Origin: Bacteroidales bacterium
Lineage (GTDB): Bacteria; Bacteroidota; Bacteroidia; Bacteroidales; UBA932
DNA: 64,000 bases
Direction: 5' to 3'
Assembly (NCBI GenBank): GCA_024401695.1
Contig: JAKSKN010000001.1
Span: 1-64,000, forward strand
Shown here: piece by piece, positions 8,965 through 41,091 of the stretch
Layout: every line of letters begins with the position of its first letter
Numbering within the stretch: the first letter of the stretch is position 1
Program-made: the position numbers and the translations under genes
Notes under the pieces: generated by a model
What the model saw: the letters and a program-made list of their open reading frames with translations, nothing else
Databases searched by the model: none
Told to the model about the DNA's origin: nothing

Positions 8965-10290
8965 ATGAAGAAGATCATCATTGCAATTGCAGCACTTTCA
9001 GCTGCACTTTCATTCACCTCCTGCAACAAGGAGGAAGTTGTGACCGGCGGCAGCGATATCCAGCCCGAGGCACCCGTCACCGTGTATGCTACGACCGGCG
9101 CGATGACAAAGACGTCCCTCAGCGACGGATACCAGGTCCTCTGGTCTGCGGACGACGAGATCATATTCGTCAGCAAATCCAACCCTGCCAAAAAGGCCTT
9201 TTTCACCCTGACTGATGGGGTTGGAAAGACAAGCGGAACTTTCAAACTCAAGGGCGAGACCGCTCCTGAGGACGGAGACTATATCGTTTATTATCCGGCC
9301 ACATATGACGGCACGAACTGGCCGGCTTCTCAGACCTATGTTGAGGGAAATATCTCCGGGTCCCCGATGAAAGCCGAGGCCAACGTAAGTGGGGGAAAGA
9401 TTTCCGACCTCAAATTCCAGAATGCCGGAGGTATTCTCAGGATTACGGTAGCACAAAATACAGAAGTTGCAATCAAAAAAATCTCCTTTTATGCAAAAGA
9501 ACTGAGTTCGCCTGTAGTACTCAACTGCAGCAGCAGTGTGAGTCTGAGTTCCGAAGCCAAGACATTCCACATTGCAATGCCTGCAAAAAAATATTCCGAA
9601 GTCAAAATCTTTTTGACCGATTCATACGACAAAACTTGCCGCAAGTCGTTCAAAGGCACTGCCGGACTCGTTATAGGACCTAGCGAAATCGCCACGGCAT
9701 CATTTTCAGTTGATAAAAACAAGTTTGTAGCAGCTGGTGATATACTCACCTTCAACGGTCACGAAGGCATCGTGGTAGATCTTGGCACAACTTTGGGTAT
9801 GGTAATTGTCGCAACAATGAATGTAGGAGCTGAATCCGTGAATGGTTCAAAGTGTCTTGGCGATAAGATGAAATACGATGAAGCTTGTGCAGCTTGTGCA
9901 GACTGGAGCGGATGGCATCTGCCAACCGTGGACGAGCTTACTGCATTCTGCGATCCCAGGTATCCTGGTGTTTGTGGAAATACTGAAGGTGCAGCAGGTT
10001 GTTATGGTGCCGTGATGTGGGACATTGATAGAGATGGAGAAATTGATTTATACTTGCCTCTCAATGACTATGAAGAGACCGAGAGTGGGTCGTACCCCTG
10101 TGACAAATATTGGACAGGAACTGCTGGCAATGATGGTAAATATTTTTATTTTGTTCCGGAAATAGATTGGGACGGCTGGGGCGGAAACACATATTATCCT
10201 ATAGCCTATGAAGACAGAGAACTGCCCTATAAGGCGGAAGCGGATACAGACAGCGAATTCCTCGTCCGTCTCTTCCACGACCTGCCGTAG
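8965..10290 (+). CDS. FISUMP-type surface lipoprotein
   Basis: A 441-aa lipoprotein: the signal peptide MKKIIIAIAALSAALSF ends in a TSC lipobox followed by NKEEV, typical of surface-exported Bacteroidota lipoproteins. Residues 30-270 form a beta-rich fimbrillin-like region (TKTSLSDGYQVLWSADDEI). The C-terminal 150 residues carry the Fib_succ_major (FISUMP) pattern (GWHLPTVDELTAF, then YWTGT). The C-terminus ends in RLFHDLP instead of the IRPVSD-type ending of its relatives. It probably acts as an outer-membrane adhesin or binding protein; no ligand can be named. It forms an operon with the upstream microprotein. Confidence 0.82.
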   Translation: MKKIIIAIAALSAALSFTSCNKEEVVTGGSDIQPEAPVTVYATTGAMTKTSLSDGYQVLWSADDEIIFVSKSNPAKKAFFTLTDGVGKTSGTFKLKGETAPEDGDYIVYYPATYDGTNWPASQTYVEGNISGSPMKAEANVSGGKISDLKFQNAGGILRITVAQNTEVAIKKISFYAKELSSPVVLNCSSSVSLSSEAKTFHIAMPAKKYSEVKIFLTDSYDKTCRKSFKGTAGLVIGPSEIATASFSVDKNKFVAAGDILTFNGHEGIVVDLGTTLGMVIVATMNVGAESVNGSKCLGDKMKYDEACAACADWSGWHLPTVDELTAFCDPRYPGVCGNTEGAAGCYGAVMWDIDRDGEIDLYLPLNDYEETESGSYPCDKYWTGTAGNDGKYFYFVPEIDWDGWGGNTYYPIAYEDRELPYKAEADTDSEFLVRLFHDLP

Positions 10291-27294: not shown

Positions 27295-27453
27295 ATGACA
27301 GACAAGACATACGGCTCAACTGACAATAGGCTCCGCTACAGAAGACCTGAAGCCAAAGAGATTCCATTGACAGTGCAGGGCGTTCTCTGCCAGAGCGGCA
27401 ACGGTCCTATGGGTGAAAAGGACTATGGAGACGGTGGTTTCTTCAATATGTAA
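27295..27453 (+). CDS. 52-aa microprotein of YVPxxVKVIE family (divergent)
   Basis: The 52-aa product has RYRRPEAKEIPLTVQGVLCQSG followed by a Gly/Asp-rich tail ending DYGDGGFFNM (the first run is RYRRPEAKEIP plus LTVQGVLCQSG). The central QGVLCQSGN and the aromatic glycine-rich tail align with the other five microproteins, although the YVP motif is changed. It lies 25 nt upstream of a lipoprotein gene, with its own promoter. No signal peptide is seen. Confidence 0.65.
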   Translation: MTDKTYGSTDNRLRYRRPEAKEIPLTVQGVLCQSGNGPMGEKDYGDGGFFNM

Positions 27454-27478: not shown

Positions 27479-29326
27479 ATGAGAAAAACAGCAATATTGG
27501 CAATCAGCCTGACAGTGGCAATTGCATCCGTATTATCCTGCAACAAGATGGATGAGAAGAGGACCGGTATACACGATGGGGAAAAATCATTGATCAACGC
27601 CGTGGCTATGGCTGTCGGCAATGATACCAAGGCCCATAGTGCCATATGCTATGAGGCTCTCTGGGACGAGAGCGACCGGATATTCGTAACTGATGGCAAG
27701 AAAACGGACTACTTCAGCCTCTGCGCCGGAGCGGGGACCGTCAAGGGCACATTCATACAGGAACTTGACCATAAATTGAATCCTCCCGGGAAGATGATAG
27801 CAGGTGAAGTGGAGATTTTCTCCCCGGCCTCCCTGAGATTCGGCGACCATTATGAATGGCCTGCGATCCAGACCGCAGACCAGGCCGTTCCGATGTATGC
27901 CAGCCAAAATATCTCCGGGACCGGTGACGAGACCGTCTACTTCTCCAGTCTCGGGGCAATGCTTCAGATAGCCCTCACGGCATCGGAGAAGGACATAGAA
28001 TTGGCAGAAATAAGGCTGTCAGACGCCAACAAGCCGCTGAGCGGTGAATTTGTCGTGACAGACGGCAAGGCAGTGATGACAGGCTCTTCGAACGACGGCA
28101 TCACCCTTCAGCTGAACAATGTCATCATAGGCAAGACTGTCAAATCTTTCTACATCGCCGTCCCTGCCGGGAAATACGAAGACCTTGAGCTTGATTTCGT
28201 TTTCAGTGACGGACGCATCCGCAAGATGCGCTCCACCACAATGCCCGGGATTGAACTCAACACAATGGCAAAGATTGCCCTCTACCTGGACGTCTCCCAT
28301 ATGCCGACAAAAATTCAGTTAAACCATATGAATCTGGACCTGGAGCCCGGCGTTTCATTCCAGCTCTCGGCGACCGTTCTGCCAAAAGATGCAGAAAACA
28401 AGAATGTCATCTGGAAAAGTTTGGATGAATCCATTGCTACGGTGGACCAGACCGGCAAAGTGACGGGCGTTGCCGAGGGAACGGCCACCATTACGGCAAC
28501 GACCGAGGACTCCTGGCTTACGGACTTCTGTATCGTGACGGTGGATAAAATACCTGCAGGAGCTCTTTCAGGGAAGTTCAGCGTGTCTGAAGGCAAGCAG
28601 GTTTACTTCTCCCAGGGCAACCTCTGGCTCGGAAACTGGATTTATGACCGGAGGATGGATACCGACTATTATTTCGAAGACCACCAATGGCAGCACCAGC
28701 CTTTGCGGGACAGCACCTGGCTAACGTCTCACAAAAACCATTTCTTCTGGAGCAAATTCCAGGAAATCACACTTTATGAGCTGTTCCCGGATCCTGAATT
28801 ACATGCGACTAAAGAGGATGTAATCTTTACGAACGATACGGACACCACCCCGCGTAAGGACTTCGGTGTCATCATCAACGGAAAGCGGAGAGTAGGCTTA
28901 TGGCGCACCCTTTCCGCTGCGGAATGGAAATACCTTCTTGAGGAACGGCCAATGACCTATGGCAAGCCAAGATACACCAACTGGTGGGGAGGCGTAAAGA
29001 TTGAGGACCCGATATTCCACGGAGTGTTCATCTATCCGGACGACTACAACGGGGATGAAGTGGTCAAAAGCAGTCATACTTGGAAAGAGATAAATGACGC
29101 GGGTATAGCCTTCCTGCCGGTTGCCGGATTACGCGAAAGGACGAAAATAACCAAAATGCCCGGGAGTCCTTACAGCATAGGCTGGTACTGGGCTTCGGAC
29201 ACCAATAAAAAAGATGATAGAACAGCGTGCACCATATACTTCGATGGTATGGTGTTAAAGTACTCTGACGACACGTACCGAGGAACAGGCATTTCTATAC
29301 GTCTCGTCAGGGATGTAACGGAATGA
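27479..29326 (+). CDS. FISUMP-type surface lipoprotein with BIG2 domain
   Basis: This 615-aa lipoprotein begins with a signal peptide whose lipobox is VLSC followed by NKMDEK. A fimbrillin-like N-terminal region (residues 35-280) is followed by a BIG2 immunoglobulin-like domain (about 285-370: LEPGVSFQLSATVLP, ATVDQTGKVTGVAEGTATIT) and a C-terminal FISUMP-like domain (WRTLSAAEWKYLL, IGWYWASDT, ISIRLVRD). It is probably surface exposed and adhesive. The next gene overlaps or abuts it, so this, the microprotein, the amidohydrolase and the following lipoprotein appear to form one operon. The frame is open from 27413, but 27479 gives the signal peptide. Confidence 0.82.
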   Translation: MRKTAILAISLTVAIASVLSCNKMDEKRTGIHDGEKSLINAVAMAVGNDTKAHSAICYEALWDESDRIFVTDGKKTDYFSLCAGAGTVKGTFIQELDHKLNPPGKMIAGEVEIFSPASLRFGDHYEWPAIQTADQAVPMYASQNISGTGDETVYFSSLGAMLQIALTASEKDIELAEIRLSDANKPLSGEFVVTDGKAVMTGSSNDGITLQLNNVIIGKTVKSFYIAVPAGKYEDLELDFVFSDGRIRKMRSTTMPGIELNTMAKIALYLDVSHMPTKIQLNHMNLDLEPGVSFQLSATVLPKDAENKNVIWKSLDESIATVDQTGKVTGVAEGTATITATTEDSWLTDFCIVTVDKIPAGALSGKFSVSEGKQVYFSQGNLWLGNWIYDRRMDTDYYFEDHQWQHQPLRDSTWLTSHKNHFFWSKFQEITLYELFPDPELHATKEDVIFTNDTDTTPRKDFGVIINGKRRVGLWRTLSAAEWKYLLEERPMTYGKPRYTNWWGGVKIEDPIFHGVFIYPDDYNGDEVVKSSHTWKEINDAGIAFLPVAGLRERTKITKMPGSPYSIGWYWASDTNKKDDRTACTIYFDGMVLKYSDDTYRGTGISIRLVRDVTE

Positions 29327-33859: not shown

Positions 33860-34003
33860 TCTTCCCTGATTCAGGAAGGGTACGAAATCCCCGACATCGT
33901 CAGTACAATGCTGAAAGAATACGATGTGGGAGAGGCCGTTCTTCGTGGCGAAGTAGAAAAGTTCGTGGCGCTCCTTCACGAAGAAATTATTGTTAAATAT
34001 TGA
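33860..34003 (+). pseudogene. C-terminal remnant of PqqD-like (RRE) gene
   Basis: After a TAG at 33857 the frame reads SLIQEGYEIPDIVSTMLKEY, then DVGEAVLRGEVEKFVALLHE and EIIVKY. This matches the C-terminal half of PqqD-family proteins, whose helices read xxxIVxxLxxxYDVxxxxxxxDVxxFLxxL. PqqD domains bind leader peptides of modified peptides. The N-terminal half is missing. It ends just inside the promoter of the leader ORF unit. Confidence 0.5.
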
Positions 34004-34020
34004 ATTATTTCGTACTTTTG
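33990..34020 (+). promoter_or_regulatory. Promoter of leader ORF / microprotein unit 1
   Basis: TTG 33990-33992 and TACTTTTG 34013-34020 are 20 nt apart. The leader ORF ATG is 9 nt after the -7 box, a distance kept in all three units. Confidence 0.7.
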
Positions 34021-34029
34021 AGAATCGCT

Positions 34030-34188
34030 ATGGTAGCGCATACCTCAAATAATCGTCTTTCAATGCCAGCCCTTATTCAGGGGGGGGTATCTAACTATCT
34101 GATAGATAGTGATTTAGCATCATTTGATAACAATATTTGCCGCTTGGAATTCAATCGTGAACCCCGGGCGGATTCTTTGTGCATATAA
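34030..34188 (+). CDS. Leader ORF with 8-G tract, unit 1 (open)
   Basis: This 52-aa frame starts 9 nt after the -7 box: MVAHTSNNRLSMPALIQGGV, then SNYLIDSDLASFDNNICRL and a tail ending DSLCI. Eight consecutive G residues (34080-34087) encode the central Gly pair. Homologous frames lie at 36071 (nine G, shifted out of frame) and 38039 (no G tract, shorter, also ending DSLCI). Synonymous differences in the shared N-terminus suggest coding, though a structured 5' leader RNA is an alternative. Slipped-strand changes in the G tract would switch the frame. Confidence 0.5.
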   Translation: MVAHTSNNRLSMPALIQGGVSNYLIDSDLASFDNNICRLEFNREPRADSLCI

Positions 34189-34227
34189 CCTGGAAATCAA
34201 AAACAACCCAAAAATAACACAGTCAAA

Positions 34228-34374
34228 ATGAAAGAAAACATCAGAAACAAAGAACTGCGGGAGCGTCAAGAGTACGTTCCTGCAAGCGTGAAGGTGATCG
34301 AGGTCACCGCACAGAAAGTGCTCTGCGGGAGCAATCCGAACAGCCCGGAACAATATGGAACCGACACCTGGTGA
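34228..34374 (+). CDS. 48-aa microprotein of YVPxxVKVIE family, unit 1
   Basis: The product has a charged N-terminus (MKENIRNKELRERQE), the core YVPASVKVIEVTAQKVLCGS, and a tail ending YGTDTW. Residues 1-30 are nearly identical in units 1-3, whereas the part after the Cys differs in every copy. This pattern, a constant N-terminal part and a variable end, resembles precursors of modified peptides. No such maturase is present in the window, apart from the PqqD-like remnant just upstream. It lies 26 nt before the lipoprotein gene. Confidence 0.75.
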   Translation: MKENIRNKELRERQEYVPASVKVIEVTAQKVLCGSNPNSPEQYGTDTW

Positions 34375-34400
34375 TAGTTGAACCCCAAAAGAGAAAGACA

Positions 34401-35930
34401 ATGAAAAAGACAATAATTCTTGCATCAGTTGCAATCGCAACCCTTTTCGCGTTCTCTTCCTGCCAGAAGGAGAGCCCTACCAACACGTCAAATGAGGGTA
34501 TCCGCGTCATTACAGCCACATTCGATAATAACGGAACCAAGACAGCTCTGGACGACGACGGCACGACCCCCGAGTGGGTGGCCGGCGACGTGCTCCGCGT
34601 CCTCAGCGCCACCGCCTATCAGGACGTAACCCTCGCTGCCGGTGACATCACAGGCAACAAGATAACGTTCACAACAACCCTCACCGGCACTCTCTATGCA
34701 GTTTATCCAGCATCAGTCACTACGATGGAAAGCTGCGGCGATGGAAACATTACCTTCACCATCCCCGCAGTTCAGGATGGCAGCTTCGCCAGCGCCAACA
34801 TCTGCGTAGCGAAGAGCAGTACAACCGATGAGACCAACAAGGACAACCTGATGTTCTGCAATGCAACGGCTGTGCTTGCATTCAGCCAGACTGCTGTCAC
34901 TAACAAGGTTCTCGGCGTAAGGGTTGAGGCCGCAAATGCAATAGTTGGTCCCATGACCGTAGGCTTCAAGGCAGACGGGACGCTCGATACTCCGACAACG
35001 TCATCTCTTTCCGGCCAGCTCATCAGAGTAAAGTCTTCTGAAGCAAAAGACAAATACTACATCGCTGCCGCTCCCGTCGCAACAGGCAGAATCGAGTTTG
35101 AGTATCAGCAGGCTATAAAGGTTGCCACCGTGACTACGGAAGCGGGAAAGACACTGGCAGCGAATATAATCTATGCCTGCCCCTCAATGGATGGTGAGAC
35201 ATACGAGGTCAAGAAAGGCACTATTAATGGACACGACTACGTTCAGATAGGTTCCGTAAAGTGGGCCACGATGAACATCGGTGCTACAACCATCACAGGC
35301 ACAACAGGTTATGGCGACTATTTCGCGTGGGGAGCAGCCGAAAAGGCTTATAGCGATTATAGTAGCTATACGTTCACTTTCCTGTCTTCGCGTCCGAGTT
35401 CATACGGTACAGGTGATTGGGATAAGAGTTCTGGATTTTGTTATAAAAACACGCCATATTGTGATGAAACTGGTGTGTATAGTAAGTATACCGGTTCTGA
35501 TTCCAAATACGTCCTCGAACCAAAGGACGATGCGGCACACTGCATCTGGGAATCAACCTGGAGGATGCCAACAGGAGGAGAATTCGATGCATTGTGTAAA
35601 GCAACCTATTGGAAATGGGATGATACAGATGAAGGATATTACGTTTATGTTCCGAACCCATCCGCAGATGCTGGTAAATACAATGGAAATGGCACAGGTG
35701 AATATGACAAGTCCGATGCTTTGCTGTTCTTCCCTTCTGCCTACCAAGGTGATGGATGCGACAACTGGATTTGGTATTGGTGGCCGGGCGTCGAAGGTTT
35801 CTATTGGACAAGCACGCTCGGGAACCCTTCAGAACATGCAAATTTTTTGCATTTCACGAAAGGCGCTGTCGCCCCGAACAATGGTTCGTTCCGTTATTTT
35901 GGCTGCTCTATCCGTCCAGTCTCAGATTAA
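34401..35930 (+). CDS. FISUMP-type surface lipoprotein, unit 1
   Basis: This 509-aa lipoprotein has the lipobox FSSC followed by QKESP. The N-terminal fimbrillin-like region begins RVITATFDNNGTKTALDDDG and contains GTLYAVYPAS. The C-terminal FISUMP domain starts near residue 285 (HDYVQIGSVKWATMNIGA), passes through STWRMPTGGEFDALC and YWTSTLG, and ends SIRPVSD. The conserved frame and variable inter-motif segments are typical of ligand-binding C-type-lectin-like folds. Probably outer-membrane anchored and surface exposed. Confidence 0.85.
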   Translation: MKKTIILASVAIATLFAFSSCQKESPTNTSNEGIRVITATFDNNGTKTALDDDGTTPEWVAGDVLRVLSATAYQDVTLAAGDITGNKITFTTTLTGTLYAVYPASVTTMESCGDGNITFTIPAVQDGSFASANICVAKSSTTDETNKDNLMFCNATAVLAFSQTAVTNKVLGVRVEAANAIVGPMTVGFKADGTLDTPTTSSLSGQLIRVKSSEAKDKYYIAAAPVATGRIEFEYQQAIKVATVTTEAGKTLAANIIYACPSMDGETYEVKKGTINGHDYVQIGSVKWATMNIGATTITGTTGYGDYFAWGAAEKAYSDYSSYTFTFLSSRPSSYGTGDWDKSSGFCYKNTPYCDETGVYSKYTGSDSKYVLEPKDDAAHCIWESTWRMPTGGEFDALCKATYWKWDDTDEGYYVYVPNPSADAGKYNGNGTGEYDKSDALLFFPSAYQGDGCDNWIWYWWPGVEGFYWTSTLGNPSEHANFLHFTKGAVAPNNGSFRYFGCSIRPVSD

Positions 35931-36045
35931 CGGCTGCCAGTTCTCCGGAAGTAGCACTGTGATGTCCTCCTCGGTAGGAATGCGTCCGAGCGTATCTTCG
36001 AGCCAGAAATAATCGACGGAGCCGGGCGGCTTTGCCGATTGAATA
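35928..36045 (-). pseudogene. Possible C-terminal gene remnant
   Basis: On the minus strand the frame reads PPGSVDYFWLEDTLGRIPT followed by EEDITVLLPENWQPL and a stop that overlaps the FISUMP stop codon. The composition looks protein-like, but no start, promoter or family can be identified, and the upstream end runs into the unit 2 promoter. Confidence 0.25.
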
Positions 36046-36061
36046 ATTTTTTGTAGATTTA
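36031..36061 (+). promoter_or_regulatory. Promoter of unit 2
   Basis: TTTG 36031-36034 and TAGATTTA 36054-36061 (one mismatch) are 19 nt apart. The leader ATG is 9 nt further. Confidence 0.5.
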
Positions 36062-36070
36062 CAAAATCTT

Positions 36071-36136
36071 ATGGCAACGCGTACCTTCAACAACAGTCTT
36101 TTAGGGCCTACTTCTATGCAGGGGGGGGGTACGTAA
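36071..36136 (+). pseudogene. Leader ORF with 9-G tract, unit 2 (shifted)
   Basis: The frame opens MATRTFNNSLLGPTSMQ as in units 1 and 3, then meets nine G residues (36121-36129) and stops at TAA 36134 after 21 codons. With eight G it would continue GGVRNYLTDNNLASS, closely matching unit 1. This is the OFF state expected of a phase-variable tract, or a decayed copy. Confidence 0.5.
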
Positions 36137-36265
36137 CTACCTCACAGATAACAATTTAGCATCATCCGTCAACAATTTTGCCATCTGGGACTCAACCTTG
36201 AGCCCCAGACAGATTCGTTGTGCATATAGCCCGGAAACAAGAACAAATCAAAAATACAATCAAGT

Positions 36266-36409
36266 ATGAAAGAAAACATCAAGAACAATGAACTGCAGGA
36301 GCGTCAAGCCTACGTTCCTGCGAGCGTGAAGGTGATAGAGGTCACCGCGCAGAAAGTAATGTGCACAAGTCCGAGTTTCAGTGACTACAATGACGGAGGT
36401 TCATACTAA
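36266..36409 (+). CDS. 47-aa microprotein of YVPxxVKVIE family, unit 2
   Basis: MKENIKNNELQERQAYVPAS, then VKVIEVTAQKVMCTS and a tail ending DYNDGGSY. The first 32 residues are almost those of unit 1. It ends 19 nt before the FISUMP gene, whose strong ribosome-binding site AGGAGG (36415-36420) lies between the two. Confidence 0.75.
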   Translation: MKENIKNNELQERQAYVPASVKVIEVTAQKVMCTSPSFSDYNDGGSY

Positions 36410-36414
36410 TCGAC

Positions 36415-36420
36415 AGGAGG
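36415..36420 (+). promoter_or_regulatory. Strong ribosome-binding site of unit 2 FISUMP gene
   Basis: AGGAGG lies 8 nt before ATG 36429 and selects it over the in-frame ATG at 36381. Confidence 0.7.
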
Positions 36421-36428
36421 AAAGCATT

Positions 36429-37886
36429 ATGAAGACAACATTCAAGTTCATCATCGCAGCGATGGCTGCCGTTTCAGTGTTCTCATCCTGCCAGAAGGAA
36501 CTGGCTAATGAGACAGTCAACAACACAACTGGCGGAGTCCGCACAATTGCTGTGCAGTTCGACAATTCCACGAAAGCGACCCTCGACGAGTTCACGCCGA
36601 AGTTCGCAAACGGCGACGCAATCAGGGTTTCCAACACTGAAAAATCAGAGGAGTGCACGGTAAGCGTTGACGGTAGCGGCAATGCCACATTCTCAACAAC
36701 ACTCTCGGGCAACCTCACAGCCATCTATCCTTCAGCCGCGGCTGTTCTCGCCTCAGAGGCAACCGATGCTCCTATTGCATCTTCCAACAATTTCAAGGTT
36801 CTCGCGACTCAGGACGGTACAGTGGAAAAAGCAATCATCGCAAGTGCCACTGTAGAGGAAGGGGTGACCACAGCTACCTTCGATGGGCTGACAGCATTGT
36901 TCCAGATTACTCCTCCTGCAGGAGCGACAACCTTCACAATCACATCACTCAACAAAATTGACGCCACCACCGGCCGTCGTTCAACTACTGCGAATGCCGT
37001 GGCTATCAACACTGAAGGTGCAGATGATGCGGCAAAACGTGTAATTAACGTTAATGTGCCTTCCGACGGTACGGCTTATGTGGCCCTCAAGGTCGGTGTC
37101 AATCTCACTGACCTCTCGTTTGATGCAGGCGGGACCTACGGAATGAAGGGTATTCCGGCGAAAGACATCACCGCGAAAGGAAAGACCGACGCAACCGCAG
37201 CCAAAACGAAATATACAATCGACAATACCAACTGGCACCCCTACGTCACCGTCAACGGCAAGAAGTGGGCCACGATGAACATCGGAGCAACTGCTTTAAA
37301 GGGAAAGCCATATTGCTGGGGATATATTCTCGCTTGGGGAGCAGTTAAACCGTTTCTTTCCGCGTCGTCTAATGACGGAGGATCGACAATTAATTTTAAT
37401 ATAGCGGCAAACAACCCCGATGCTGTAAGATACAACCCCGACACATGGGCTCCGGGAAGCGGCTTCGAAGCCTGTAACGCTCCTTATTACAACGGCTCAG
37501 CATATACCAAATATACTGGAGAAAGTGGTGACAGCAAGGACGTCCTTGACCTTGTCGACGATGCTGCATATTACTGGTGGGGCGGTTCCTGGCGTATGCC
37601 TACCAAGGAGGAATTCGATGGTCTCATAAGCCTCATAGATAGTTATGATCAAACGGATAAGGGATGTTATATCGGTGAATCGGAGAAGTTCTTCCTTACT
37701 GCTAACGTCTTTGTCATGGGTACATCGCCCATGTTTGGTTGGGCCGGCAACTATTGGACATCCTCGTTGAATACCGAAGATTCCAATAGTGCTCGCACCT
37801 TCGACTTTAGCAAAAGCGGTTTTGATGATACCATGGGTGCCCGTGAACGTTCCTACGGCCGGACCGTTCGCGCCCTCTCAGATTAA
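36429..37886 (+). CDS. FISUMP-type surface lipoprotein, unit 2
   Basis: This 485-aa lipoprotein has the signal peptide MKTTFKFIIAAMAAVSVF and lipobox SSC followed by QKELA. The N-terminal region has RTIAVQFDNSTKATLDEF and LTAIYPSAA. The FISUMP part begins near residue 277 (HPYVTVNGKKWATMNIGA), continues GSWRMPTKEEFDGL and NYWTSSL, and ends RTVRALSD. Its similarity to unit 1 is concentrated in the signal region and FISUMP motifs, with little in between, so these are old paralogues or strongly diversified ones. Confidence 0.85.
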   Translation: MKTTFKFIIAAMAAVSVFSSCQKELANETVNNTTGGVRTIAVQFDNSTKATLDEFTPKFANGDAIRVSNTEKSEECTVSVDGSGNATFSTTLSGNLTAIYPSAAAVLASEATDAPIASSNNFKVLATQDGTVEKAIIASATVEEGVTTATFDGLTALFQITPPAGATTFTITSLNKIDATTGRRSTTANAVAINTEGADDAAKRVINVNVPSDGTAYVALKVGVNLTDLSFDAGGTYGMKGIPAKDITAKGKTDATAAKTKYTIDNTNWHPYVTVNGKKWATMNIGATALKGKPYCWGYILAWGAVKPFLSASSNDGGSTINFNIAANNPDAVRYNPDTWAPGSGFEACNAPYYNGSAYTKYTGESGDSKDVLDLVDDAAYYWWGGSWRMPTKEEFDGLISLIDSYDQTDKGCYIGESEKFFLTANVFVMGTSPMFGWAGNYWTSSLNTEDSNSARTFDFSKSGFDDTMGARERSYGRTVRALSD

Positions 37887-37912
37887 TTCTTGAAAACACT
37901 CAAAAGCATTAT

Positions 37913-37937
37913 CGCGCTGCTCCACCCGGGCAGCGCG
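37913..37937 (+). terminator. Hairpin after unit 2 FISUMP gene
   Basis: CGCGCTGC (37913-37920) pairs with GCAGCGCG (37930-37937) across a 9-nt loop. No strong T-run follows. A second stem, TATGCGG/CCGCATA, lies just downstream. Confidence 0.5.
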
Positions 37938-38021
37938 TAATGTATATATGCGGAAGTCGACCCGCATAACATACATCGGTATTGGTTCTGCCTGAATGAT
38001 GGTAGATTGAAATATTTTTTG

Positions 38022-38029
38022 TATTTTAG
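38022..38029 (+). promoter_or_regulatory. -7-like box of unit 3
   Basis: TATTTTAG, one mismatch from TAnnTTTG, 9 nt before the leader ORF ATG, the same spacing as in units 1 and 2. Confidence 0.4.
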
Positions 38030-38038
38030 GAAATCGTT

Positions 38039-38140
38039 ATGAAAACGCGTACCTTCAATAACAATTTAGCAGTATTCAACAACATCGTTTATCGTCTGGG
38101 ATTCAACTGTGAGCTCCGGACGGATTCGTTGTGCATATAA
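38039..38140 (+). CDS. Leader ORF, unit 3 (no G tract)
   Basis: A 33-aa frame, MKTRTFNNNLAVFNNIVYRL followed by a tail ending RTDSLCI. It shares its N-terminus and its DSLCI end with unit 1 but lacks the segment carrying the poly-G tract, so it cannot switch. It precedes the microprotein ATG by 41 nt. Confidence 0.45.
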   Translation: MKTRTFNNNLAVFNNIVYRLGFNCELRTDSLCI

Positions 38141-38181
38141 CGAGTAAATCAAGTACAAACCAAAAATAATTTTCAATCAGG

Positions 38182-38340
38182 ATGAAACAAGACATCAAAA
38201 ACAATGAACTGCAGGAGCGTCAAGCCTACGTTCCTGCAAGCGTGAAGGTGATAGAGGGCACCGCACAAAGAGTAATCTGCACAAGTGGCGACGAAACAAC
38301 CCCCGGTCTGAGTCCTGATAATAATCCTTATTTATTCTAA
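38182..38340 (+). CDS. 52-aa microprotein of YVPxxVKVIE family, unit 3
   Basis: MKQDIKNNELQERQAYVPAS, then VKVIEGTAQRVICTSGDE and a tail ending DNNPYLF. The first 35 residues match units 1 and 2; the tail is unique. It lies 12 nt before the FISUMP gene. Confidence 0.75.
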   Translation: MKQDIKNNELQERQAYVPASVKVIEGTAQRVICTSGDETTPGLSPDNNPYLF

Positions 38341-38352
38341 AATTTTGCAGCA

Positions 38353-39729
38353 ATGAAAAAATACATTTTTGCAGTTTTTGCAGTTGTTGCAGTTCTCTCA
38401 TCCTGCAGCAAGAATCTTGAGCTCAACGAGGATATCAACTCCGAGGCTAAAGCAATCACAACAATCGGCGCATCAACCGAAATTTCCACACGTGCCGTTG
38501 TCAGCTCATCAGAAGACACAATAGTCAATTGGGAAGCTGGAGACCAGCTTGGCGTATTAGGCGCAAATGGTTCATCAGAAGCAAGGAATCTTGCATACAC
38601 TCTGGACGGCGTTGGTGGCAGCACAACCGGCAAATTCAAGAATGGTGATTCTGATATTACCGCCATCTCTGCCATAATGTACCCTTACCAGGAGAACGCC
38701 ATCTGGGATGGCACGAACAGCAAGCTCACCTGTGAGATTCCTCCTGTGCAGACAGCAGTGAAAGGTTCCTTTGACAAAAATGCTGCGGTAATGTACTCTA
38801 TCGGCAACACCACTGATGCGGATCTCAACTTTGCCGTAAATTTCCTGAAGGTCACGATTGGAACCGGAGATACCAATATCCATTCAATAACCATCAGCAG
38901 CCCTTCGACAGAACTGAGCGGAAAGATAGATATCACATCTTCAAGTGTCGCTGCCGTTTCGGACCAATCATTGAAGAGCGTTACACTTACAGCCGGGAAG
39001 AATCAGACATTTGCGGCGGGAGATTATTACATTGCAATAATGCCAAGCGATATAGTCACTCCGACCATCAGCATAATCCGTTATGAAGACGGCCACACGG
39101 CAAAAGAATATTCCAAGGTTGGTGGCAGTGGCAATCTGGAATTTGCCAGCGGAAAGAACGTAAAACCTATCTCGGTTAATTTCAGTACAATTACAACCGC
39201 CACTGGACGGGAGGCTGTCCAGCTCTGGGCGGAAGGTCCGTATTGGGCAACGTTTAACGTAGGTGTCACTGATGGTAATGCAGCAAGTCCTGGCGGCTAT
39301 TACGGTTGGGGAGGAAGTACAGATAAAGATCTTTCCGATTACAATAAAGGCACATCAGTACTTTCTGGCTCATACGACACCGCCGCCAAGCTCTGGGGCA
39401 GCAACTGGCGCATGCCGACACTAAACGAACTTAAGAATGAAGAAGGCGGACTTCTCAAGGAGTGTGATTGCACTATTGATAATAAAGGCTTGAAGTGTAC
39501 TGGCAAGGGTGGCTATTCAACTAAGAGTGTGTTCCTTCCTGCCGCTGGCACATATAGTGCTGGAAATGTAAATTTTGGTGAATATTTTGGGAGCTACTGG
39601 TCTTCCGAGCCTTGTGGACAGGATCAGTCGAAAAAATTATTCGTGGACGCAATGAGAAGCACATTCTACATAACAGACGAATACCGCGATACCGCCTGCT
39701 GCTCCGTCCGCGCGGTGCTTGCGGATTAA
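38353..39729 (+). CDS. FISUMP-type surface lipoprotein, unit 3
   Basis: This 458-aa lipoprotein has the signal peptide MKKYIFAVFAVVAVL and lipobox SSC followed by SKNLEL. A fimbrillin-like region (residues 30-285) precedes a short FISUMP domain (GREAVQLWAEGPYWATFNVG, GSNWRMPTLNELKNE, YWSSEP, CSVRAVLAD). Two Cys pairs (ECDC and CC near the end) are unusual among the four paralogues here. Probably a surface adhesin. Confidence 0.85.
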   Translation: MKKYIFAVFAVVAVLSSCSKNLELNEDINSEAKAITTIGASTEISTRAVVSSSEDTIVNWEAGDQLGVLGANGSSEARNLAYTLDGVGGSTTGKFKNGDSDITAISAIMYPYQENAIWDGTNSKLTCEIPPVQTAVKGSFDKNAAVMYSIGNTTDADLNFAVNFLKVTIGTGDTNIHSITISSPSTELSGKIDITSSSVAAVSDQSLKSVTLTAGKNQTFAAGDYYIAIMPSDIVTPTISIIRYEDGHTAKEYSKVGGSGNLEFASGKNVKPISVNFSTITTATGREAVQLWAEGPYWATFNVGVTDGNAASPGGYYGWGGSTDKDLSDYNKGTSVLSGSYDTAAKLWGSNWRMPTLNELKNEEGGLLKECDCTIDNKGLKCTGKGGYSTKSVFLPAAGTYSAGNVNFGEYFGSYWSSEPCGQDQSKKLFVDAMRSTFYITDEYRDTACCSVRAVLAD

Positions 39730-39747
39730 CTTGAAAGCTGCATATAG

Positions 39748-39794
39748 GCTGTCATAGTTCCAGCGCACCCCAAGGTGCGCCCAAGCCATGACAG
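39748..39794 (+). terminator. Nested hairpin after unit 3 FISUMP gene
   Basis: Outer arms CTGTCAT/ATGACAG enclose a perfect 7-bp stem GCGCACC/GGTGCGC (39763-39780) with a 4-nt loop. TTTGTATG follows. It acts as a terminator or boundary structure 20-60 nt past the stop. Confidence 0.55.
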
Positions 39795-39830
39795 TTTGTA
39801 TGTATATACAAATGCCCAAAACGGAAAACA

Positions 39831-39962
39831 ATGGCAAATCTTGAGGAGATAATAAAGCCAGAAAAGTCGCGAAGCGACTCGCGCACATTTTCTCAGATAC
39901 CCCTTTTCAAGGAAGGAGCCTTTCTTCGTGCGTACGAGCAGAGTGCTTGGCTGATGATATAA
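39831..39962 (+). CDS. 43-aa ORF resembling start of a MutS-I-like protein
   Basis: MANLEEIIKPEKSRSDSRTF followed by SQIPLFKEGAFLRAYEQSAWLMI, then tandem stops (second run split as SQIPLFKEGAF and LRAYEQSAWLMI). The string LFKEGxFxRAYExSAWL recalls the LFrxGdFYElF motif of MutS domain I, and I recall longer proteins of this type beside Bacteroidota surface-protein and retroelement loci. Here it is cut short, so it is either a remnant or a short peptide. Nothing else supports its expression. Confidence 0.4.
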   Translation: MANLEEIIKPEKSRSDSRTFSQIPLFKEGAFLRAYEQSAWLMI

Positions 39963-40028
39963 TAAATTCCTTGAAAACTATAACACCGGTGCTCCGAAAC
40001 AGACGGAGGTTAATATTCAAATCTGCGT

Positions 40029-40178
40029 ATGAAAATTGCTCAAAAGGAAAATGAACGGTATGTCCCGCCGATGATGAAGATGATATCGGTTTCCACTCAC
40101 TCCAATATCTTGAATGTCAGCTTCTGGGATGAAACGGATCCTGTCAATGGTGGTGATATGAACGAAGGAATATGGTGA
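40029..40178 (+). CDS. 49-aa microprotein of YVPxxVKVIE family, divergent
   Basis: MKIAQKENERYVPPMMKMIS followed by a variable part and a tail ending GGDMNEGIW. It keeps the YVPP, K-M-I-S and aromatic-end features but lacks the central Cys (ILNVS takes its place). The stop overlaps the spacing to the next ATG by design: TGATATG joins it to the fimbrillin-like gene, so translation is coupled. Confidence 0.65.
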   Translation: MKIAQKENERYVPPMMKMISVSTHSNILNVSFWDETDPVNGGDMNEGIW

Positions 40179-40179
40179 T

Positions 40180-41091
40180 ATGAAAAAAGTTAAATGGATA
40201 CTGGTTGTCATCGCGATGGCGGTGATTTCCTGCACCAAGCAGGAGAATGAAGGCGAATTGACCTACTTGAGGATTAATTCGGTATCGACTGTGCAGTCCG
40301 ATGATGCTTCCAAACTCACCAAGGCGGCAATCCAGGGCACGTCGTTCCCGACCGGCGAAAAAGTCAGCGTCGGTCTGTTCGTTGTAGGCGAAGGTTATAC
40401 GGATGCGAAATATCGCAATATTGAATACACAAAACCGGCAGGTTCAGACACTTTCACTGATCCCGGAATCGCCCTTATCCAAGGTAAGACAGCGACTGTC
40501 TATGCCTATTATCCGTATGACGGGGCAATCTCCGATATAACGCAAATCCCTGTCACTTCTTCCGTTGGAGGCAATGACTGGATGTGGGCGACACCAATAG
40601 AAAACGTCAGCACGGAAAATCCGTCCATCGACCTGACGTTCCATCACTCGCTTGCGTTGGTGGAGATAATTTTCAATGTCTTTGGCCCCGCAGGAAGGAG
40701 TATGACCAATGTCACGGTAGCAGGAGGCGACGGAGCATTCTCAGCAACAGGTACTATGGACGCAACGGACAGCGGAAAACTCATCCCCGGAACTGCGGCA
40801 ACCAAGTCCGCGCCGTTCTCGCAGGATGTCAGCCTTCAGGTGTCCGATAGTAAGATAGTTGCGGACTGCCTGCTCGTTCCCGGCAAGACCGGCGACGATG
40901 CCGATGCCCGTCAGGACTTCTACATAAAATGCACCTATAACGGCAAGGAATACGGTATCTCGCTCACAGGCAGCGAAAAGGGCGTGATTGTCCGCAGTAA
41001 GACCAAGTCCACAATCCTTCTCAACATCAAGGATGATAAACTTGAGGTAGTTGCAACGGATTATGACATTGACACTTCAAAATGGTGGTAA
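40180..41091 (+). CDS. Fimbrillin-family lipoprotein (Mfa-like)
   Basis: This 303-aa lipoprotein has the lipobox VISC followed by TKQENE. Its sequence (TKAAIQGTSFPTGEKVSVGLFV, given as TKAAIQGTSFPTGEK and VSVGLFV, then ATVYAYYPYDG and LTFHHSLALVEIIFNV) matches the N-terminal fold of fimbrillin/Mfa-like proteins (PF13149). It is probably a surface fimbrial or adhesin subunit anchored in the outer membrane. It is followed 17 nt later by a FISUMP lipoprotein, giving a three-gene unit with the microprotein in front. Confidence 0.85.
   Translation: MKKVKWILVVIAMAVISCTKQENEGELTYLRINSVSTVQSDDASKLTKAAIQGTSFPTGEKVSVGLFVVGEGYTDAKYRNIEYTKPAGSDTFTDPGIALIQGKTATVYAYYPYDGAISDITQIPVTSSVGGNDWMWATPIENVSTENPSIDLTFHHSLALVEIIFNVFGPAGRSMTNVTVAGGDGAFSATGTMDATDSGKLIPGTAATKSAPFSQDVSLQVSDSKIVADCLLVPGKTGDDADARQDFYIKCTYNGKEYGISLTGSEKGVIVRSKTKSTILLNIKDDKLEVVATDYDIDTSKWW

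Follow-up and report, generated by a model that had tools for sequence, protein, structure and literature searches.

Peptide–lipoprotein gene pairs in the window and beyond

The window analysed here is the whole of a 64,000-nucleotide (nt) stretch of DNA from a Bacteroidales bacterium of the UBA932 lineage (assembly GCA_024401695.1, contig JAKSKN010000001.1, positions 1 to 64,000 of the forward strand), and our subject is a family of microproteins whose genes lie directly upstream of lipoprotein genes (Table 1). A first-pass annotation, made from the letters alone, had described six short open reading frames (ORFs) of 44–52 amino acids (aa), each ending 1–26 nt before such a gene. All six are present where it placed them, the measured gaps fall within that range, and the lipoproteins that follow start with MKK, MRK or MKT.

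Table 1. Peptide genes, their partner lipoprotein genes and a PqqD-like fragment in the window
Feature	Position	Strand	Remarks
PqqD-like C-terminal fragment	33866..33991	+	see text
Precursor-like peptide 1, 44 aa	8817..8951	+	ends 13 nt before lipoprotein gene
Partner lipoprotein of peptide 1	8965..10290	+	lipobox-type N-terminus; no Pfam family
Precursor-like peptide 2, 52 aa	27295..27453	+	YRRP variant; profile member; 25 nt gap to partner
Partner lipoprotein of peptide 2	27479..29326	+	carries Big_2 domain
Precursor-like peptide 3, 48 aa	34228..34374	+	26 nt gap to partner
Partner lipoprotein of peptide 3	34401..35930	+	
Precursor-like peptide 4, 47 aa	36266..36409	+	19 nt gap to partner
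Partner lipoprotein of peptide 4	36429..37886	+	C-terminus with weak Lcl_C match
Precursor-like peptide 5, 52 aa	38182..38340	+	12 nt gap to partner
Partner lipoprotein of peptide 5	38353..39729	+	
Precursor-like peptide 6, 49 aa	40029..40178	+	no Cys; 1 nt gap to partner
Partner lipoprotein of peptide 6	40180..41091	+	fimbrillin-like; Mfa_like_1, E 7e-19

The motif by which the six had been grouped, Y-V-x-x-x-V-K-v-I-E, is looser than first described: M1, Y16 and K22 (P0003 numbering) are the only residues shared by all six, and two copies, at 27295 and 40029, deviate from the motif. The central (L/M/I)C-x-S recurs in five of the six as had been noted, and the aromatic residue said to terminate the peptides occupies the last position in four and lies merely near the end in two. 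As for the partner proteins, the name fimbrillin-like suits the last one in Table 1; the name FISUMP draws weak support from weak Lcl_C matches in the window and from TIGR02145, which scores below its cut-off in 2 of 10 partner lipoproteins elsewhere. Compared with Pfam and NCBIfam, the six peptides match no family above cut-off, and zf-IS66, the best of several weak Pfam matches (E 0.006), was taken as chance. Peptide 4 has a close relative in a metagenome-assembled genome (MAG) of Candidatus Alistipes equi (L093).

Three of the peptide–lipoprotein units stand in tandem and have a common 5′ untranslated region (UTR), with 74–76% identity over 106–188 bases (34020-34230, 36070-36256 and 38064-38169); the remaining matches to it in the source genome are just 14–19 bases long. 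We considered this region as a conserved regulatory element and rejected it, the likeness being confined to the three tandem copies. Because members on other contigs lack the 5′ UTR of the window copies, it is the peptide itself that is the conserved entity.

A profile of the six window peptides finds 18 family members in the 2.65-Mb source genome (a 19th row, E 0.98, was counted as chance), and 17 of these 18 directly precede a lipoprotein ORF, lipoproteins being judged by eye. The exception, L025 (L205) on contig C54 at about 82290-82440, has an N-half of the window type and no large ORF or lipoprotein gene behind it. At E up to 0.003, a second profile of 37 peptides (A5, which leaves out L058, L060-L062, L067 and near-duplicates) finds matches in 184 of the 298 genomes from the taxonomic family of the source genome; the most peptide-rich of them has at least 23. 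All 66 readable matches in the other genomes of that family precede a lipoprotein ORF; a lipobox pattern identifies 59 of these ORFs, and the other 7 were judged by eye to start at a later Met. These are drawn from 67 matches read in nearly rank order, one of which lies at a contig end; the 67 include three lower-ranked matches from the same regions and leave out matches with loci already (e.g. G041:C48, G027:C103, G080:C14, G034:C9, G052:C6) as well as the contig-start match G579:C70. The first-pass annotation had thought chance unlikely for six pairings, and the larger counts bear this out. It had also proposed checking whether lipoprotein neighbours are more frequent than expected, and this is the case: the lipobox pattern flags 55 of 56 deduplicated partners, whereas of the 102 other ORFs in these regions that reach 150 aa it flags 16.

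Across the whole order the peptide family is rarer at the sensitivity used (profile A3, E up to 0.001): 8 of 295 genomes match, among them the source genome, one genus-mate and one chance match (L074 in G293), which spans 16 residues without YxxP and was excluded from the out-of-family test below. Five loci, all from MAGs, came from a contig scan with six close rows, and horse faeces appear in the titles of at least two. The partner lipoproteins measure 273–1019 aa among the 22 listed, and a few have adhesin- or fimbria-like matches. Searches with 33 members gave no PHROGs or NCBIfam family and two Pfam matches at chance level, and the peptide profile matched no solved chain of at least 20 residues up to E 10. 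The open-licence literature, for the most part titles and abstract beginnings, yielded no paper on such peptides in Bacteroidales.

Two further observations concern the partners. Of 15 Mfa_like_1 matches in the source genome (C4, C6, C12, C71 and window 40318), only 3 adjoin a peptide (window 40318, C6:17097 and C12:114183), so that many fimbrillin-like genes seemingly lack one. At L073 (G309, about 1495-2607) peptide and lipoprotein-like ORF form a natural in-frame fusion.

A conserved N-terminal block and a variable C-terminal half

Y-x-x-P occurs in 77 of 85 peptides, and alignment of 78 peptides on Y/H-x-x-P/S (the seven Y-x-P peptides being left out of the 85) gives a block that runs ungapped through all of them. 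Counting from the Tyr as position 0, Tyr and the Pro at position 3 are each found in 77 peptides; Val or Ile follows at positions 7, 10 and 15, Glu at 9 (53/78), Gly at 14 (52/78), Ile or Leu at 16 and Cys at 17 (70/78). Position 19 is Ser in 72 of the 78 and Thr in none. Conservation drops sharply past position 20. The rest of the peptide is on average 18 residues long and acidic (354 Asp/Glu versus 27 Lys/Arg among 1379 residues), and 71 of the 85 peptides have an aromatic residue within the last four positions. No signal peptide is apparent by eye. If the family pattern is transferred to peptide 3, the predicted leader runs to about Leu32/Cys33, followed by the conserved Ser35 and a variable core that ends at Trp48.

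Purifying selection clearly acts on the block. Over its 20 codons the ratio of nonsynonymous to synonymous differences per site (pN/pS) is 0.19 (pS 0.346, pN 0.065) for 18 pairs of 17 peptides that are at least 85% identical; the pairs are not independent, and they include one without synonymous change. This is the excess of synonymous changes across homologues whose absence, according to the first-pass annotation, would have refuted its reading.

The two halves relate differently to the neighbouring lipoprotein. Specifically, a copy on contig C8 and the copy at 34228 have identical C-halves and lipoproteins with similar N-termini, and their N-halves are different. The same was examined for the 85 of 88 peptides whose partner is at least 150 aa long, which gives 3570 comparisons, using lipoprotein residues from 46 on. 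For the 35 comparisons between related lipoproteins, mean similarity of the C-halves (cores) is 0.56 versus 0.12 in the rest, and that of the N-halves (leaders) is 0.54 versus 0.44, hardly different. The rank correlation with the lipoprotein is 0.16 for cores (Mantel p 0.001) and 0.08 for leaders (p 0.012). Since cores track the lipoproteins and leaders barely do, the C-half moves or evolves together with its lipoprotein, and the N-half serves a shared purpose.

Putative processing genes and their co-occurrence with the peptides

In its sequence the block resembles the YxxP leader motif of lasso peptides, which is a known recognition sequence (PMC12710340) of the RiPP recognition element (RRE; RiPP, ribosomally synthesized and post-translationally modified peptide). 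The source genome has three matches to PqqD, a protein of RRE type: a free-standing gene on contig C13, a gene in a radical S-adenosylmethionine (radical-SAM) cluster on C65, and the window fragment of Table 1. The fragment lies about 240 bp upstream of peptide 3, shares 34 of 42 residues with the C65 PqqD, and is probably a remnant rather than a working RRE.

At most PqqD genes read, an operon encodes a P-loop protein of about 290 aa, an S24 peptidase (PF00717, E 1.9e-6), PqqD and a fused permease/ATPase ATP-binding cassette (ABC) exporter with the domains ABC_membrane and ABC_tran. The P-loop protein, referred to below as the kinase, is weakly like HprK-related kinases (TIGR04352, E 5.5e-4, below its cut-off). 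A nucleotidyltransferase (PF14907) is found in L226, G297, G309 and G146; none was seen in many of the operons read, that of the source genome among them. At 17 PqqD loci (16 elsewhere and the C13 locus), fixed patterns pick up the S24 peptidase 16 times, the kinase 13 times and the exporter 12 times, with all three present at 9 loci; the patterns overlook some visible ORFs, and none of the three matched at C13. The source genome carries a single kinase together with an S24 peptidase and an exporter on contig C2, this exporter being 57% identical to that of G484 (E 4e-192).

A similar set of genes makes the linear polyphosphorylated peptides (LPP) of Bacillota, which PMC13381572 describes with an HprK-like kinase LppK, an RRE LppB, a SipW-like peptidase LppS, a nucleoside triphosphate (NTP) transferase LppN and an exporter LppD. 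The best solved matches to our PqqD profile are the lasso RREs TfuB1 (6jx3), TbiB1 (5v1u, 5v1v) and PbaB1 (9x90), together with LppB (9x8z), all of them RREs for which the same paper cites leader-bound structures. The lasso RREs score 37, 36 and 33 bits versus 26 for LppB (4.8e-5). The Asp of the ‘DxxxF’ motif in the LppB alignment is in our view D70, by which the leader Tyr is held; 11 of 13 aligned PqqDs have Asp there, and two from different gene contexts have Glu. The peptidase matched only Peptidase_S24 and a weak LexA model, and all 9 aligned sequences retain Ser, His and Asp within its GxSMxP, V-x-H-R and GDGN motifs; LppS requires S29, H68 and D93 (PMC13381572). The kinase P-loop is invariant in 6 of 6 aligned sequences, and NDDNP is also present.

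Co-occurrence was counted over the 298 genomes of the taxonomic family, given here as both / peptide only / gene only / neither. PqqD (PF05402 over cut-off) is present in 210 of them and yields 171/13/39/75 (p = 9e-28). The kinase, present in 202, yields 171/13/31/83 (p = 2e-33) and is the more specific marker of the two; the genera with the peptide are the genera with the kinase, the same 12 of 24. Within the genus of the source genome the counts for the kinase are 105/5/22/14 among the rows listed (p = 1.6e-6), where the ‘neither’ cell may be too small. An out-of-family test used five peptide-matching genomes of four other families, picked before the kinase search, and as controls 60 genomes of the order in which no peptide had matched, taken first by handle (G099-G160 minus matches) and for the most part inferred to be peptide-negative. 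The kinase was found in all five peptide-bearing genomes (E 6e-60 or better) versus 0 of 60 controls at that level (p = 1.2e-7).

One genome shows the elements side by side: in G297 the peptide, lipoprotein, kinase, S24 peptidase, PqqD, nucleotidyltransferase and exporter are contiguous on one strand, with Pfam matches to S24 (2e-6), PqqD (1e-8), NTP_transf_5 (6e-40) and both exporter domains. Kinase, S24 peptidase, PqqD and exporter lie together in G112 and G348, as do exporter, nucleotidyltransferase, kinase and S24 peptidase in G146.

A proposed dispersed precursor pathway and its alternatives

We regard the microproteins as precursors of a dispersed, LPP-like RiPP pathway with an RRE and an exporter, and give this reading a probability of about three in four. 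The first-pass annotation had already been reminded of modified-peptide precursors by the leader-like half and the variable end. That suggestion gains from the co-occurrence of the peptides with genes for an RRE, a kinase, a peptidase and an exporter, to which they are physically linked in one genome. What we observe is genetic and sequence evidence; from it we infer modification, cleavage and export, and likewise binding, the cut site and every role of the lipoprotein.

The pathway could run as follows. The conserved N-half (Y-x-x-P ... V-x-E-V-x-x-E-G-V-I) would act as the leader and be bound by one trans-acting RRE of the PqqD type. The HprK-like kinase would then phosphorylate the conserved Ser of C-x-S, the likely phospho-acceptor, and the S24/SipW-like peptidase with its Ser, His and Asp would remove the leader near I-C-x-S. 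By analogy with LPP the cut would most simply fall at I16/C17, giving Cys1-x-Ser3. Signal peptidases follow a small-x-small rule, by which the cut might alternatively come after Ser19. The fused exporter would release the acidic variable core of about 18 residues, which may finally act with the surface lipoprotein encoded directly downstream as a ligand, subunit or cargo. The fuller proposal is a modular surface-display system of the Bacteroidales, in which a single RRE-kinase-peptidase-exporter machine would process up to twenty or more phosphorylated peptides from scattered genes, and every core would serve the lipoprotein next to it as its own ligand or subunit. It is more tentative, and we put it slightly below an even chance.

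The closest known system is LPP, whose precursors combine a conserved YxxP N-half (motif YxxPxVLxHQxIxFETxxS) with a variable C-terminus; the leader is cleaved after Thr(-1), and LppK phosphorylates core Ser3, for which Thr is no substitute (PMC13381572). Both systems have an HprK-like kinase, a discrete RRE, a signal-peptidase-type protease with Ser, His and Asp, an ABC exporter and, though here in only part of the genomes, an NTP transferase; both have precursors with a YxxP N-half, a highly variable C-terminus and a Ser, never Thr, at a fixed distance after the Tyr. The matching genes, the YxxP block and a Ser that Thr never replaces lead us to propose that the system works like LPP. However, the Bacteroidales precursors are scattered and usually paired with lipoproteins, the contiguous cluster being seen only in G297; C-x-S lies one residue further from the Tyr, and neither HQ nor FET is present; one machine would serve up to twenty or more precursors; and by profile score the RRE is no closer to LppB than to the lasso RREs. 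With FET absent, the Ser shifted, the precursors usually outside the cluster and the RRE not closest to LppB, we do not class the family as a member of LPP.

Lasso peptides (with RRE B1 and a paeninodin-type kinase) likewise have a YxxP leader read by a PqqD-type RRE, in their case YxxPxL at -17 to -12 with a conserved penultimate residue (PMC10368454), and they share the kinase, NTP transferase and exporter. In contrast to them, neither a macrolactam cyclase nor a B2 peptidase caught the eye among the operons that were read, in which no dedicated search for these was made. The RiPP clusters described from Bacteroidales share the order and general RiPP logic; they have GG leaders, radical-SAM or YcaO enzymes and C39 peptidase transporters, and the word ‘lipoprotein’ does not occur in the main text of their description (PMC10352776). 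We rejected an identity of our peptides with GG-leader RiPPs, as the block has no GG motif. Prochlorosins provide a precedent for a single set of enzymes that serves many precursors, conserved in the leader and variable in the core; their chemistry is that of lanthipeptides, and the precursors here differ from them in being paired with lipoproteins.

Several observations weigh against the precursor reading. Seven of the 18 peptides in the source genome have Y-x-P instead of Y-x-x-P; these are all the Y-x-P peptides among the 85, and the three central window copies belong to them. Among the 184 peptide-bearing genomes, 13 are without a kinase match and 13 without PqqD, both are missing from 9, and some of these exceptions are 95–99% complete by marker genes, so that assembly gaps may not explain all of them. 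Conversely, 31 genomes have the kinase and 39 have PqqD without a peptide match. The genomes are related, so Fisher p-values computed genome by genome treat them as more independent than they are; the comparison of genera and the test outside the family are fairer. Weak kinase matches (4e-7 to 2e-17), probably to other kinases, occur in 7 of the 60 controls and if counted in change the out-of-family p-value to 1e-4. No PqqD was seen beside the G146 operon, only the kinase and nucleotidyltransferase were seen in the G309 stretch, and the G112 peptide lies about 10 kb from its operon with no lipoprotein gene after it. The PqqD of the source genome is on C13, outside the C2 operon. With the PqqD profile LppB ranks below the lasso RREs, and the FET that precedes the cut in the LPP consensus is absent from the peptides. 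Finally, the core–lipoprotein correlation is weak overall, and co-divergence could result, wholly or in part, from linkage alone.

The alternative that fares best accepts the precursor and export steps and differs in what the pairs are for: the core would be a secreted inhibitor of bacteriocin type and the lipoprotein its self-immunity or target. A precursor with a dedicated gene, a common exporter, many diverse cores and a patchy distribution would all suit such pairs. Usual immunity proteins, however, are small, whereas the partners here are large and a few are adhesin- or fimbria-like, and the cores are strongly acidic; we consider this reading unlikely. A little less probable still is a microprotein that stays in the cytosol, neither exported nor modified, as a chaperone or regulator dedicated to the lipoprotein encoded downstream. 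It would account for the strict pairing, for C-halves that diverge along with their lipoproteins and for the absence of an apparent signal peptide, but it leaves unexplained why the peptides share a leader-like motif, why they co-occur with RRE, kinase, peptidase and exporter genes, and why all of these form a single cluster in G297.

We find it very improbable that the ORF does no more than couple or adjust lipoprotein translation and that the peptide is functionless. The phylum of the Bacteroidales makes little use of Shine-Dalgarno sites, and the window stop codons lie 1–26 nt ahead of the next start; yet the block shows a pN/pS of 0.19 and an ungapped amino-acid pattern in otherwise differing DNA, the 5′ UTR likeness is limited to three tandem copies, and there is the link to the RRE/kinase operon. 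The first-pass annotation had held signalling, chaperone and translational-coupling roles to be equally open, and this we would no longer maintain, as pure coupling explains neither the selection on the block nor the link to the machinery.

If the fuller proposal is correct, new peptide–lipoprotein pairs could spread as cassettes, the leader of each plugging into an existing machine. The precursor reading suggests that peptides which are exported, and possibly phosphorylated, work together with part of the surface lipoprotein repertoire. Many gut microproteins that lack annotation, present in well over half of the genomes of one taxonomic family (184/298), would acquire a testable function. 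That a single genome should hold up to twenty or more scattered RiPP precursors, almost every one beside a surface lipoprotein of its own, is not what a specialist would expect. The reading would also extend to Bacteroidota, in dispersed form, an RRE-kinase-peptidase logic that was described in 2026 as restricted to Bacillota, in a paper from whose main text ‘bacteroid’ is absent (PMC13381572).

PqqD also occurs in other surroundings. The C65 cluster of the source genome (L203, 815-2700, minus strand) encodes a Cys-rich precursor, a radical-SAM/SPASM protein (TIGR04463-like, below cut-off) and PqqD, and its precursor has the same FEAPEVKVMEI-type leader. That the whole peptide family belongs with this cluster would fit the match of the C65 precursor to the family profile (E 5e-4), the shared leader motif and the C65-like PqqD fragment just upstream of peptide 3, but the family cores are Cys-poor and no radical-SAM gene of the C65 type was noticed beside the PqqD loci read (other genomes were not searched for it), which makes it a far-fetched assignment. 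At L215 (G089) and L216 (G494), within the same taxonomic family, PqqD stands in a different context again, beside ORFs that by eye are sulfotransferase-like.

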